Assembly: GCF_007362775.1 (NCBI RefSeq) | Contig: NZ_CP041692.1 | Coordinates: 2,852,001-2,916,000, forward strand | Length of the DNA stretch: 64,000 nucleotides | Direction of reading: 5' to 3' | Source of the DNA: Microlunatus elymi | Lineage (GTDB): Bacteria; Actinomycetota; Actinomycetes; Propionibacteriales; Propionibacteriaceae | Part shown: piece after piece, positions 2,381-59,965 of the stretch | Layout: every line of letters starts with the position of its first letter | Position numbering within the stretch: the stretch's first letter is position 1 | The notes under the pieces: model-generated | Database searches by the model: none | Seen by the model: the letters and a program-made list of their open reading frames with translations, nothing else | Told to the model about the DNA's origin: nothing | Program-made: the position numbers and the translations under genes

Positions 2381-2832
2381 CGTGGTGGGGAAACGTACGA
2401 CCCGATCGACCTTGGGCTCGCACGAAGTCGACTGTGGTGGGGAAACGTACGACCCGATCGACCTTGGGCTCGCGCGAAGTCGACTGTGGTGGGGAAACGT
2501 ACGACCCGATCGACCTGGGGCTCGCACGAAGTCGACTGTGGTGGGGAAACGTACGACCCGATCGACCTGGGGCTCGCGCGAAGTCGACTGTGGTGGGGAA
2601 ACGTACGACCCGATCGACCTGGGGCTCGCGCGAAGTCGACTGTGGTGGGGAAACGTACGACCCGATCGACCTGGGGCTCGCACGAAGTCGACTGTGGTGG
2701 GGAAACGTACGACCCGATCGACCTGGGGCTCGCGCGAAGTCGACTGTGGTGGGGAAACGTACGACCCGATCGACCTTGGGCTCGCGCGAAGTCGATCGTG
2801 GTGGGGAAACGTACGACCCGATCGACCTGGGA
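2381..2832. repeat. 52-bp tandem array, 8 full units plus a partial ninth
   Basis: Units start at 2381, 2433, 2485, 2537, 2589, 2641, 2693, 2745 and 2797, exactly 52 bp apart. The unit begins TGTGGTGGGGAAACGTACGA and ends in a GTCGAC site. Variation is limited to a few positions (CTTGGG/CTGGGG, GCACG/GCGCG, first and last units CGTGG), so recent homogenisation is likely. There are no variable spacers, so it is not a CRISPR. Read on the minus strand it carries the T-tract core shared with the loci at 29161, 50155 and 59297. Confidence 0.95.
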
Positions 2833-3063
2833 ATGAATGGCTCAGCGGCGCTGTCCACCCCCGCCGGCGAGTTCGGGGAGTTGGGCGCGCCGGTCGGAAT
2901 CCTGGAAATGCGGACGGAGTCGGCGGAATCGGGCTCGTCGAGGTCGGATCCGGGCGTCTGCGTCCGCAATGTCAGGTTCGTGATCGGGGGGCCATGATCG
3001 CCGGCATGTCGCGCGCCCTAGTCCCGACCAGGCCGCGCGCCCGAACCCAGCGCTTCTCCTGCG

Positions 3064-3131
3064 TTCCCGCGCATCCACGGCGCTGCCGCGGAAGTACGAA
3101 CTTGCGCGGCAGCGCCGACGATGCGCGGGAA
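3064..3131. repeat. Palindromic intergenic element, copy B
   Basis: A 68-bp palindrome with outer arms TTCCCGCGCAT (3064-3074) and ATGCGCGGGAA (3121-3131). The inner arms CGGCGCTGCCGCG and CGCGGCAGCGCCG are perfect complements, and the centre is AAGTACGAACTT. The outer arms carry a compensating pair of changes relative to copy A (CACC/GGTG to CATC/GATG), which suggests that pairing is kept by selection or conversion. Confidence 0.85.
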
Positions 3132-3360
3132 GGGGTTTGAAGCGGCGCGGCCGGACGATCCCGGGCCGGCCGACTGCTCCTGCGCACCCACGGCGCTCCT
3201 GAGCAGTACGAGGGAGTCCGAAGCTGCCCGGCATCGACTGGGGCAGGCGGAGACCGGGGCCGGAAGGTTTGGGCACGGGCGGGGTGGCGCCGGTAGATTC
3301 ACCGGCGAGCCCGGGCGATCGGCGCCATGGCGAACCTGACGCGGTCGGAGGGAGGCCACC

Positions 3361-8557: not shown

Positions 8558-9193
8558 GTGAGCAGCAAGGGACAACCCGTCCGTCCGACGGGCCACGACA
8601 ACCAGCCGACCCTGCCGATGGGCGATCCGACGGCGGAGACCCAGGGGCTGCTGTTCGAGGGTGACTTCTCGCCGCTGCCGCAGGACTACGGCTTCCGCGG
8701 GCCGGTGGCCTGCAGCGTGGTCGGCATCACCTACCGCCAGCTCGACTACTGGGCCCGCACCGGCTTGGTCACCCCGGAGCTTCGCGGCGCCAAGGGTTCC
8801 GGGAGCCAGCGGCTCTACAGCTTCCGCGACATCCTGATCCTGAAGGTGATCAAGCGGCTGATCGACGCCGGCATCTCGCTGCAGCAGATCCGTACCGCGA
8901 TCGAGCACCTGCGCGCCCGCGGTGTCAACGACCTGTCCGAGGTCACCCTGATGAGCGACGGGGTCAGCGTCTTCGAATGCACCTCCGACGACGAGGTGAT
9001 CGACCTGCTGAAGGGCGGCCAGGGCGTCTTCGGCATCGCACTCGGCGGCGTCTGGAAGGACATCGAGGGCAGCCTCGCCGAGCTTCCGGTCGAGCGTCTG
9101 GAGGAACATCGGGCCGACGCCGAGACCGAGGCGATCCTGGACCGCGCCGACGACGAACTCTCTCGCCGTCGGCGCGCACGCGCCGCTGGATAG
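8558..9193 (+). CDS. MerR-family transcriptional regulator (Rv1830-like)
   Basis: A 211-aa regulator with the MerR helix-turn-helix at about 45-115, with 'SVVGITYRQLDYWARTGLV' and 'GSQRLYSFRDILILKVIKRL', and a helical C-terminal half. Mycobacterial Rv1830 is the syntenic equivalent. The GTG start has GTGGAGG 7 bp upstream. The last codons (RARAAG then TAG) lie within the first copy of a 28-bp tandem repeat that continues beyond the stop. Confidence 0.85.
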   Translation: MSSKGQPVRPTGHDNQPTLPMGDPTAETQGLLFEGDFSPLPQDYGFRGPVACSVVGITYRQLDYWARTGLVTPELRGAKGSGSQRLYSFRDILILKVIKRLIDAGISLQQIRTAIEHLRARGVNDLSEVTLMSDGVSVFECTSDDEVIDLLKGGQGVFGIALGGVWKDIEGSLAELPVERLEEHRADAETEAILDRADDELSRRRRARAAG

Positions 9194-9280
9194 GGCCCGG
9201 CGCGCACGCGCGGCTGGATAGGGCCCGGCGCGCACGCGCCGCTGGATAGGGCCCGGCGCGCACGCGCCGCTGGATAGGTC
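9171..9280. repeat. 28-bp tandem repeat, four units, starting inside the merR 3' end
   Basis: Units begin at 9171, 9199, 9227 and 9255. Each carries GGCGCGCACGCG, then CCGCTGGATAGG (CGGCTGG in unit 2). Unit 1 encodes the C-terminus and stop codon of the merR gene, so the array looks like three extra copies of the gene's own 3' end. GGCGCG..CGCGCC within each unit can pair, so the array may also act as a terminator. Confidence 0.92.
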
Positions 9281-9781: not shown

Positions 9782-9836
9782 AGCCGCGGAATGCCGGCTG
9801 GCGGAGCCGGTGGGCTAGAGTTGCCGCAGCCGCAAT

Positions 9837-9930
9837 CAGTCGACGCGAGAGAGACCATCCCAACCCGAGGATGGCGCCGAAGGGGCAACCTCCCCGGAAC
9901 CTCTCAGGCACCCGGACCGCGTACCGACTG
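9837..9930 (+). promoter_or_regulatory. Glycine riboswitch aptamer upstream of gcvP
   Basis: The P1 strands CAGTCG (9837-9842) and CGACTG (9925-9930) pair, extended by CGCG/CGCG. Between them are the conserved glycine-aptamer cores: GAGAGACC, GCGCCGAAGGGGCAA, CTCTCAGGCA and GGACC. Only one aptamer is clear; the bases after 9930 lack a second full set of core motifs. It should sense glycine and control gcvP. Confidence 0.9.
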
Positions 9931-10019: not shown

Positions 10020-12897
<2,878 letters not shown>

Positions 12898-12899
<2 letters not shown>

Positions 12900-21916: not shown

Positions 21917-22017
21917 TCCTCGACCGCCACACCGCAACCAGGGTCCTGAGCCTGCCGAAGGACCGATGGGTCACCCGGATCCCACCCCGCCAAGGGCCTC
22001 GAGCCGAACGTCGCCGC

Positions 22018-22083
22018 TCCCGCGCACGTTCGGCGCTGCCGCGCAGGTTCGTACTTCCGCGGAAGGGCCGTGGGTGCGCGGGA
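22018..22083. repeat. Palindromic intergenic element, copy C
   Basis: TCCCGCGCAC (22018-22027) pairs with GTGCGCGGGA (22074-22083), followed inward by CGGCGCTGCCGCG and a diverged CCGCGGAAGGGCCG arm. It is less perfect than copies A and B, with the same overall size and centre (GTTCGTACTT). Confidence 0.7.
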
Positions 22084-22140
22084 ACGCAAGTGCGGCGGTG
22101 CACCCGAACTGTGCGCTCTCGCGGCCGCCGGGGGGCCGTA

Positions 22141-29021: not shown

Positions 29022-29059
29022 CCCTGCATCGCTGCTGCCGGTCGGGCTTCGCCACCACG

Positions 29060-29134
29060 CTCCCGCGCACCCACGGTTCTCCCGCGGAGGTCCGACAGTC
29101 GAGCTTGCACGGCAGCGCCGAAGGTGCGCGGGAG
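29060..29134. repeat. Palindromic intergenic element, copy D
   Basis: CTCCCGCGCACC (29060-29071) and GGTGCGCGGGAG (29123-29134) are perfect outer arms. The inner left arm (CACGGTTCTCCCGCGG) is diverged from the right arm (CGGCAGCGCCG), so this copy is decaying inside. Confidence 0.75.
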
Positions 29135-29160
29135 TAGGAATCAGGGGGGGCCGGGGTCGC

Positions 29161-29264
29161 TGTGGCCGGTCGTTTTCCAGCCGGGGTTGAGTTTTCGCGG
29201 GGCTTGGGTGGGTGTGGCCGGTCGTTTCCCAGCCACAGCTGAGTTCGAGCGGATTGGGACGCTC
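29161..29264. repeat. Two-unit member of the 52-bp repeat family
   Basis: TGTGGCCGGTCGTTT begins at 29161 and again at 29213, exactly 52 bp apart. Both units continue with CC(A)GCC, about 12 bases, then a TTTTCG/GTTCG tract. The core matches the minus-strand reading of the 2381 and 59297 arrays. Confidence 0.8.
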
Positions 29265-29393
29265 TGACCGTGCGCTTCTCGACCAGGGACGAGTTCCGGC
29301 CGCGGTTGACCTGGCCGCCGGCGTTCACCGGGCCCGCGGCGGTGACAGTGCGAGGCACTATCACGCGCATGCCGCGGATCGGGGTCGAGGGAT

Positions 29394-29515
29394 GCTTCCC
29401 GCGCACCCGCGGTGCTCCCGCGTACGTTCGAACCTGCGCGGCAGCGCCGAAGGTGCGCGGGAAGCGTCCCCGGCGTCAGGAAGGTACGCGGGAGCATCCC
29501 AGGTGCGCGGGAAGC
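29394..29515. repeat. Palindromic element copy E with two extra right halves
   Basis: GCTTCCCGCGCACC (29394-29407) pairs with GGTGCGCGGGAAGC (29452-29465). The right-arm motif then recurs as GGTACGCGGGAGC (29483-29495) and AGGTGCGCGGGAAGC (29501-29515) without left arms. Confidence 0.8.
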
Positions 29516-50003: not shown

Positions 50004-50301
50004 TCGCCGATCGACGACCCGCGTGAACGCCTACCGGCCGGTTCGGTAACCGGTGTCGGGATATTTCGGGTGCGCCGGTGCCCTCGGCGCTCGTTCGGCA
50101 ACCGGGGACCCGTACGGCGGTCATCGCGCTCCCCGCGGATCGCTGGTGCCCGGCGTTCGTTTTCCCGCCGATGTGGGGTTCGACCGGGCTGTTGGATACT
50201 ACGGCCGTTCGTTTTCCAGCCGGAGTGGACTTTCGCCTGCCGCTGCGACGGTCAGCGCACGGGCGAACAGACCGGGACCAGGTCAGAGTGGTCCGATCGG
50301 G
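50004..50301. other. Gap holding a two-unit 52-bp repeat
   Basis: 298 bp between DUF1918 and the LssY-C gene. It has no gene. The only structure seen is the 52-bp repeat pair at 50155-50258. Confidence 0.6.
50155..50258. repeat. Two-unit member of the 52-bp repeat family
   Basis: GTTCGTTTTCC starts at 50155 and at 50207, exactly 52 bp apart. Each is followed by GCC, about 9 bases and then GGTTCG or CTTTCG. The outer parts of the two units have diverged. Confidence 0.75.
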
Positions 50302-59041: not shown

Positions 59042-59193
59042 CGGCTGCTCCCCGACAGCTCGCCGGGCCGGCTCGCCCTTCGTGACTCCGGTCGCGCTCG
59101 CGCGTGGGCGGTGATTCGCGGTTACGGGTCGTTGTGGGCGAATGCAGGTGGTTACCGGCCCGCACCGTGTGCCCGGGCATGGCTCGTCGGACC

Positions 59194-59254
59194 AACTTGC
59201 GTGACGAAGGTGCAGATTTTGGTTCAGCAAACCCGCACCTTCGTTACGCAAGTT
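59194..59254. terminator. Large hairpin downstream of the sugar ABC operon
   Basis: AACTTGCGTGACGAAGGTGC (59194-59213) pairs with GCACCTTCGTTACGCAAGTT (59235-59254) with one G-T position; GGTT/AACC inside the loop extends it. It lies 153 bp after the permease stop. It may end that transcript or be a mobile-repeat relic. Confidence 0.65.
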
Positions 59255-59296
59255 CGCGGGTACGCGCCGCGCCCCGCACCGAGCCGGAAAATCGGA

Positions 59297-59965
59297 CCGA
59301 CTCCCGGGCGGGGCCACCCGAAAACCCCGCACGTGCTGGAATCTCCGGGCCCGACACCGCCCGAGGCCCCCGAAAATCCCGCACGTGCTGGAATATCGGG
59401 ACCCGACACCGCCCGAGGCCCCCGAAAATCCCGCACGTGCTGGAAAATCTGGACCCGACACCGCCCGAGGCCCCCGAAAATCCCGCACGTGCTGGAATAT
59501 CGGGACCCGACACCGCCCGAGGCCCCCGAAAATCCCGCACGTGCTGGAAAATCTGGACCCGACACGGCCGCGGCCCCCGAGAATCCCGCACGTGTCGGAA
59601 AGTCGGACCGACTCCCGGGCTCGGCGCCCCGAAAGCCCCGCACGTGCTGGGAATCCGGGCCGGACACCGCCCGAGGTCCCCGAATATCCCGCACGACGTG
59701 CTGGAAAATCCGGACTCCCACGGGCTTTGAGGACCAGAAAATCCCACACGTCGTGCTGGAAAATCGGGGCCCGACACGGTCCGAGGCCCCCGAGAACCCA
59801 GGACGTGTCGGAAAGTCGGACCGACTCGCGGGCCCGGCGCCCCGAAAACCCCGCACGCGACGTGCTGGATTTCCAGGCCCAACACGGCCCGAGACCCCCT
59901 ATAACCCCGCACGTGCTGGAAATTCCGGACCCGACACCCACCCGAGGACCCGAGAATCCGGGCTT
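59297..59965. repeat. Degenerate 52-bp repeat array, 13 units
   Basis: Unit starts (CCGACAC/CCGACTC) are at 59297, 59351, 59403, 59455, 59507, 59559, 59608, 59660, 59711, 59771, 59821, 59879 and 59931. The central units are exactly 52 bp apart and nearly identical; flanking ones range from 49 to 60. Almost every unit has a GCACGTGC or GCACGNCGTGC centre next to TGGAA. Read on the minus strand, TTTTCCAGC, 10 bases, then ATTTTCGGGG matches the core of the other loci. Confidence 0.92.

Follow-up and report, generated by a model that had tools for sequence, protein, structure and literature searches.

Dispersed intergenic arrays of a 28-bp core at near-constant 52-bp spacing in Microlunatus

The usual explanations for dispersed repeats of bacterial chromosomes are transposase activity, CRISPR, and slippage. 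The MIRU of Mycobacterium tuberculosis occupy about 40 dispersed intergenic loci as direct tandem units of ~53 bp that are alike along their whole length, and iteron or parS-type arrays consist of direct sites at helical spacing. REP elements, according to PMC3733652, are marked by a GTAG or CGTC tag that adjoins a stem of ~6-9 bp, sit behind genes and in convergent gaps, and are sites at which gyrase acts. The arrays described here, from Microlunatus elymi, share with REP/BIME elements the character of imperfect palindromes of 20-40 bp that are dispersed, intergenic, species-specific, and often clustered, as well as the placement behind genes in convergent or codirectional gaps. They differ in their direct spacing of 51-53 bp, with up to 10 cores per array (13 in the array A4, below); moreover, whereas the GTAG super-family of REP/BIME is mobilised by RAYT, a search for the Y1 transposase (Y1_Tnp, PF01797) was negative in all 20 Microlunatus genomes searched and positive in 5 of 14 controls. 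Neither a GTAG nor a CGTC tag beside a stem appears in the core profile, and on these two points an identity with REP/RAYT was rejected.

The likeness to MIRU lies in dispersed intergenic loci with direct tandem units of ~53 bp in an actinobacterium; the arrays are set apart from MIRU, as the latter are generally described, by keeping only 28 of 52 bp, by the occurrence of several unrelated cores, and by units that lack full-length homology between loci (identity of 0.315 in the linker and 0.68 in the core). As in CRISPR, a 28-bp repeat with a weak dyad and a GAAAC near its end alternates with linkers of a near-equal ~24 bp. Unlike CRISPR, there are dozens of short arrays, the cores are degenerate between units, and unique spacers between near-identical repeats were not found, the A1 units being 97% alike including their linkers and linkers being repeated within many arrays; a CRISPR identity was rejected on the absence of Cas1 from the host, and among the 20 genus genomes Cas1 was found in G024 only. 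With iteron and parS-type arrays the family shares direct sites at helical spacing and differs from them in its dispersal over the chromosome and its lack of a replication-strand pattern; no link to partition or replication genes was seen in the flanks of the arrays in the analysed stretch. In placement and dispersal the family works like REP/BIME and like MIRU, and it fails defining features of each, as it has no RAYT, no tag and stem, and no full-length unit homology; we file it as a new variant among dispersed intergenic repeats. A full-text literature search returned nothing naming such a family in a title or in the opening of an abstract, in agreement with the original prediction, which knew of no described family that fits.

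The window, the whole stretch of 64,000 bp that was analysed, spans positions 2,852,001-2,916,000 of the host chromosome, a single contig of 5,121,194 bp, and contains four arrays. A1, on the plus strand at 2371-2831, comprises nine tandem cores at a period of 52 bp, the first at 2371-2400, and was reported by TRF as 8.9 copies of 52 bp with a 97% match. A2, on the minus strand at 29166-29297, was reported by TRF as 1.9 copies of 52 bp at 29147-29245; reading of the sequence disclosed a third core, so that the array has three cores and not two, at 29166, 29218, and 29268 and with spacings of 52 and 50 bp. A3, on the minus strand at 50153-50234, is missing from the TRF output, and its two cores at 50153 and 50205, 52 bp apart, are plain by eye. 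A4, on the plus strand at 59272-59951, was reported by TRF as 12.9 copies of 52 bp and holds about 13 copies at spacings of 51-57 bp. The 52-bp period had been predicted for all four and was found at each. The same prediction placed one shared core at all four loci; this holds for A1, A2, and A3, which have in common a 28-bp core with the consensus GAACYCRACTNTGGTKGGRAAACGNACG, and not for A4, which carries the different core AAAATCCCGCACGTGCTGGAAAATC. The two T-tracts 18-19 bp apart that had been noticed as recurrent correspond to AA at core positions -1/0 and AAA at positions 17-19. TRF also gave a weak 26-bp sub-period at A1.

The relatedness of these loci was assessed with a profile (position matrix) built from 85 units at 32 loci, all outside the window. 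Best scores were 35.3 bits in A1, 34.5 bits in A2 (34.5, 32.0, and 23.5 bits for its three cores), and 33.5 bits in A3 (33.5 and 32.6 bits for its two), against top maxima in dinucleotide-shuffled sequence of 14.7, 17.0, and 15.3 bits, respectively; the observed score was reached by none of 300 shuffles for A1 and by none of 1000 for either A2 or A3. A4 scored 3.1 bits, which was matched or beaten by 81 of 300 shuffles. An unselected 400 kb of the host genome (L131-L150) contained no place of 13 bits or more. Four further arrays came from a BLAST search of the genome with A1. A sequence-only model, R1, made from 11 units of these four arrays, all of them outside the window, gave nine matches in A1, three in A2, and two in A3, at E values from 1e-10 to 8e-4, and did not match A4; a two-unit model, R2, gave a best E value of 0.098 on A4 with filters off. 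From the profile and R1 results it follows that three of the four loci stand as more alike than shuffled sequence and that A4 fails as a member of the main family. A1, A2, and A3 are members of one main core family with a 52-bp period, and A4 forms a separate family that has the same period and another core.

In the host genome (G000), R1 yielded at least 120 matches at E values up to 10, mostly clustered ~52 bp apart, and at least 75 at E values up to 0.01; these counts are lower bounds, because 150 of 4,332 first-look candidates were scored. At a cut-off of 13 bits the main core is present at no fewer than 37 places, made up of 33 of 34 fetched regions (L074 lacked a core), L162, and the three window arrays. 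Tandem arrangement, defined as at least two cores at a distance of 45-66 bp, characterises 33 of the 37 (the others being L054, L066, L071, and L081), and arrays of the main family have 2-10 cores each. Weighted by locus, information content is high at core positions -2 to 25 and near zero in the ~24-bp linker, both in the host (99 units at 33 loci) and in the related genome G004 (66 units at 16 loci). In the sets used for information, covariation, spacing, identity, and neutral simulation, a unit below 18 bits was counted only if another lay at a distance of 45-66 bp. Under this rule, the 59 pairs of successive cores in the host are spaced by 52 bp in 42 cases, 51 bp in 9, and 53 bp in 4, with 47, 50, 54, and 62 bp occurring once each. 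Without it, 65 pairs of cores are no more than 200 bp apart, and 57 of them have spacings of 51-53 bp, as do 50 of 57 pairs when only units of at least 18 bits are taken. The near-constant spacing that had been claimed is thus borne out; the further claim that every core faces the same way, five turns from the next, does not hold strictly, since spacings of 47, 56, and 58 bp, about half a turn off, are also found.

Units were found to be similar within a locus and dissimilar between loci outside the core, as the original prediction had it, and comparison of adjacent units separates the fate of core and linker. Where the linkers of adjacent units are less than 45% identical, the cores remain 77% identical in the host (26 pairs at 20 loci), and in G004 the cores of unlike-linker pairs are 85% identical (14 pairs at 9 loci). 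Spacing likewise remains at 51-53 bp where linkers are unlike both neighbours, in 27 of 31 cases in the host and 11 of 14 in G004; in a crude simulation of neutral change, for which indel rates were assumed, 28-71% of spacings stayed within 1 bp. These identities and spacings indicate that the core is kept, the spacing is kept less strictly, and the linker sequence is free. Tandem duplication does occur, given that the A1 units are 97% alike and that several units of L067 are identical to each other. The core is imperfectly dyad-symmetric with partial pairing, and at L068 two right half-sites form an almost perfect palindrome, CGTTTCCCAACC-CT-GGTTGGGAAACG. Because the core halves do not covary beyond the margin within the genome (best z of 2.4 among 13 pairs in the host), the dyad may be incidental. 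A ~200-bp element with a conserved tail (CCGGATTTGAGGAGGTTCTGG...) is common to L066, L069, L071, and partly L080; one of its ends bears a core or two, and it might reveal how cores travel.

The A4 core, CCNGCACGTGCNGGAAAATC as a family core, matches 15 host stretches including A4 at E values up to 8.6e-4; some of the 14 others neighbour each other, and in seven of nine stretches read the spacings are 50-52 or 104 bp. Among the 20 genus genomes this family was found in the host alone at the sensitivity of the search. At L056 a main core and an A4-type core stand side by side, and L084 appears by eye to hold both. Further cores occur on the same period: a third dyad at L134 and L149 (spacings of 52 and 50 bp), CGTTTGTGGCCCGNGGGCGCRARACGTAC in G024 at 52 bp, CCGAGGGGTCACAAAATCCCTC in G006 at 52 bp, and GGCGATATCGCAACACATGTCGCC in G011 at 52 and 49 bp. 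When intergenic tandem segments with lags of 30-79 were counted in unselected samples of 400 kb, lags of 50-53 made up 4 of 6 in the host, 4 of 11 in G006, 1 of 7 in G011, and 7 of 10 in G024, compared with 1 of 14 and 0 of 3 in 200-kb samples of two genomes that belong to other families of the order. A number of these segments are weak, resemble coding sequence (L222 and L281), or have a sub-period of ~26 (L137 and L269), and the control is small, with two outside genomes. Compared by eye, the A4 and main cores have the dyad centre, a GG, and A-tract positions in common, and the best register of the matrix on A4 is the by-eye register at a score that is not significant, which makes the likeness a lead only. 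We consider it a speculative and rather improbable reading that species have their own cores on a common lattice of ~52 bp, with the period and not the word conserved, through fast-evolving, co-diversifying pairs of protein and array, one core per protein, that form five-turn nucleoprotein lattices behind genes; if true, it would add a new class to the elements of bacterial chromosomes. At L137 7770-7930 a tandem repeat was also seen whose period, 26 bp, is half of 52. Just ahead of A4, at 59190-59256, lies an inverted repeat, AACTTGCGT-ACGAAGGTGC...GCACCTTCGT-ACGCAAGTT, with related copies at L062 and L066.

Beyond the host, versions of the main core occur in six other Microlunatus species. 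R2 gave matches at E values up to 0.1 in 12 of the 20 genus genomes; they are secure in seven (93 in the host, 122 in G004, 16 in G024, 8 in G012, 7 in G005, 4 in G008, and 3 in G025), and the weak matches of the other five were treated as chance. Arrays are visible by eye in G005, G025, and G024, the last presumably M. phosphovorus NM-1, a studied polyphosphate accumulator. No secure main-core match was obtained in G006 (none) or G011 (best E value of 0.07), and relatives of this type, without a secure core, have 90-92% RarA identity. A pattern scan of a contig collection returned 11 stretches, six from M. speluncae, two from M. endophyticus, and three single ones from unrelated bacteria that we took as chance. 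Among 147 genomes of the order, matches were confined to the host, G024, and three single near-threshold R2 matches in genus g2, which were set aside as they appear by eye to lie inside protein-coding sequence; among 198 genomes of the family, at E values up to 1e-4, five genus members matched and none of the 178 others did. The family search used a stricter filter that missed G024 and G005, so that weak versions outside the genus could be missed as well. At the sensitivity used, the main core is restricted to Microlunatus. Two single exact matches in viral contigs were regarded as chance and a phage origin was dismissed, as the ~180 bp around each are AT-richer and hold no array.

Positions of arrays are hardly shared between species. 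Between 221 array-near proteins of the host and 124 of G004, G012, and G008, a single pair of orthologous flanks was found (L056/L092), and a conserved gene neighbourhood was rejected on this count. A1 lies in a gap flanked by genes for a glycosyltransferase and a DUF881 protein. This gap measures ~1.3 kb in the host, compared with about 130-515 bp in six relatives, and none of these six, in which both flanking genes stand together, has a core at the site. Because positions are hardly shared and the A1 site is empty in relatives, arrays have been gained or lost lineage by lineage; the prediction of one old family amplified independently is thus only partly right, as loci turn over.

Genes were called by a codon-score method in four genomes, and of the 60 clusters there, 57 have a called gene on either side, in keeping with the predicted intergenic location; the exceptions are two single dyads inside genes, which we took as chance, and one cluster at a contig end. 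In the host, all of the 35 places with called gene context (L054 and L162 being left out of the 37) are between genes. The gaps that hold the 57 clusters are codirectional in 33 cases, convergent in 19, and divergent in 5; measured against the base pairs of such gaps at the same loci, convergent gaps are enriched (p 0.006) and divergent gaps depleted (p 0.02). A2 and A3 both lie in a convergent gene gap. Within codirectional gaps, 25 of 30 arrays are closer to the preceding stop than to the next start (p 0.0003), at median distances of 112 and 277 bp, respectively, and a tendency toward gene ends is therefore present. Orientation of arrays relative to genes was not significant (19 of 30 opposite, p 0.2), nor was there polarity with respect to ori and ter, 20 of 35 arrays being on the leading strand (p 0.5) with ori placed close to 0 and ter at about 2.6-3.0 Mb by a noisy GC skew from 22 samples and the window. 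The lack of a replication-strand pattern speaks against a KOPS-like or replication-polar role. Host arrays are on the minus strand in 25 of 35 cases, irrespective of replichore. No common theme emerged from ten genes that flank the arrays of the window or lie close to them.

Our preferred reading, held with a confidence just short of even, is that the core is a double-stranded site for a dedicated DNA-binding protein that acts across about five turns, in genus-specific arrays that spread and turn over. The constrained unit would be the 28-bp core, with a ~24-bp linker that keeps its length and not its sequence; each core would be bound by a dedicated, probably dimeric, putative DNA-binding protein, and proteins on neighbouring cores might make contact over a distance of 51-53 bp, or about five helical turns, such that an array nucleates a nucleoprotein complex behind genes without disturbing promoters. 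Arrays would be gained at new places in each lineage and lengthen as the 52-bp unit is duplicated in tandem, after which linker similarity would be lost while cores and spacing are kept. Placement at gene ends could mean that such complexes are least harmful there or that they act on transcription ends. The data on core and spacing call for a reader of the core that is sensitive to the distance to the next core, for which a DNA-binding protein would be the simplest candidate, and the recurrence of the period with different cores (A4 type, L134/L149, G024, and G006) counts in its favour. Binding by a protein, which the original prediction deemed conceivable, would be compatible with the data. 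Counting against the preferred reading are the half-turn spacings, core halves that do not covary, the better-than-shuffled folding of A2 and L104, the lack of a theme among the genes near the window arrays, relatives without a secure core (such as G006 and G011), positions hardly conserved between species, unlike those of ordinary regulatory sites, and the fact that the sequence analysis found neither a binding protein nor a spreading mechanism. The lineage-specific positions, the six empty A1 sites, the patchy presence inside the genus, the species-specific cores, and the REP-like placement (19 of 57 gaps convergent, 5 of 57 divergent, and 25 of 30 arrays nearer to the stop) are also what a selfish, REP-like miniature element would leave behind, if a mobilising enzyme read the core, arrays were by-products of copying with no benefit to the cell, and insertion behind genes were merely where it is tolerated. 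The lack of a Y1 transposase match in all 20 genus genomes argues against this, as does a near-constant direct spacing of 51-53 bp with free linkers, which would not be expected from independent insertions, and we rate the selfish element as somewhat unlikely. These two readings, protein site and selfish element, appear to be the leading ones, and sequence by itself does not decide between them.

The bias toward gene ends and convergent gaps, the mostly equal orientation of sites within arrays, and the action of gyrase at REPs noted above would also fit a BIME-2-like topology element, in which arrays serve gyrase or a similar enzyme as a platform for taking up supercoils in the wake of transcription units that converge or follow one another. 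Against this stand the six relatives that keep the gene order flanking A1 without the core; moreover, a requirement of gyrase sites for a 28-bp sequence, one that varies from one close species to the next, is not known, and we judge such a role improbable. Slightly less probable still is that the arrays are MIRU/VNTR-like tandem repeats that share an ancestry, arose through slippage during replication, and are under no constraint. Units 97% alike in A1 and identical in L067, the similar ~53-bp length of M. tuberculosis MIRU, and the mildest simulated indel rate, which leaves 71% of spacings within 1 bp and so not far below the observed 87%, agree with slippage, while cores 77-85% identical where linkers are unlike, a fixed spacing, and unrelated cores on the same period disagree with it; slippage alone does not readily explain cores and spacing that persist amid changing linkers. 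An RNA-level element, whether hairpin, terminator, processed repeat RNA, or CRISPR-like array of 28-bp repeat and 24-bp spacer, seems very improbable. It would account for the weak dyad followed by GAAAC, and A2 on the minus strand (z of -2.25), L104 on the plus strand (z of -2.66), and A4 on both strands (z of -3.9 and -4.3) do fold better than most shuffles; 10 of the 12 foldings outside A4 are near shuffle level (z from -0.95 to 0.91), the arrays have no Rfam match in six sources, and the non-significant orientation relative to genes and, for the CRISPR-like form, the lack of Cas1 in the host and G004 and the repetition of linkers within many arrays point the same way. With little support from folding, within-genome covariation, and Rfam, an RNA hairpin was rejected for the main family, and the mostly unremarkable folding makes a DNA-level role the simpler reading. 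Finding the reader of a 28-bp word every 52 bp would bring to light either a new chromosome-binding system or a new way in which miniature repeats spread, and the arrays in G024 would allow testing in a cultured strain; array length may also serve as a strain-typing marker.

Several other repeats and features were noted. A 70-bp imperfect palindrome (TTCCCGCGCACC...GGTGCGCGGGAA) has five near-complete copies in the window, at 2201-2272, 3062-3136, 22015-22086, 29058-29136, and 29394-29466, and a fragment at 29480-29510, as well as two copies in the 400 kb of unselected host sequence. Pairs of it bracket A1, A2, and the array of L086; it is absent from most of the fetched array loci, on which ground it was rejected as a vehicle of arrays, and it constitutes a separate family of MITE-like or REP-like kind. 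A glycine riboswitch (RF00504, 54.4 bits) lies at 9836-9929, upstream of a long open reading frame at 10020-12899, in a region with matches to gcvP on plasmids. About four near-identical tandem copies of a 28-bp palindromic unit, CGGCGCGCACGCGCCGCTGGATAGGGCC, are found at 9170-9278.
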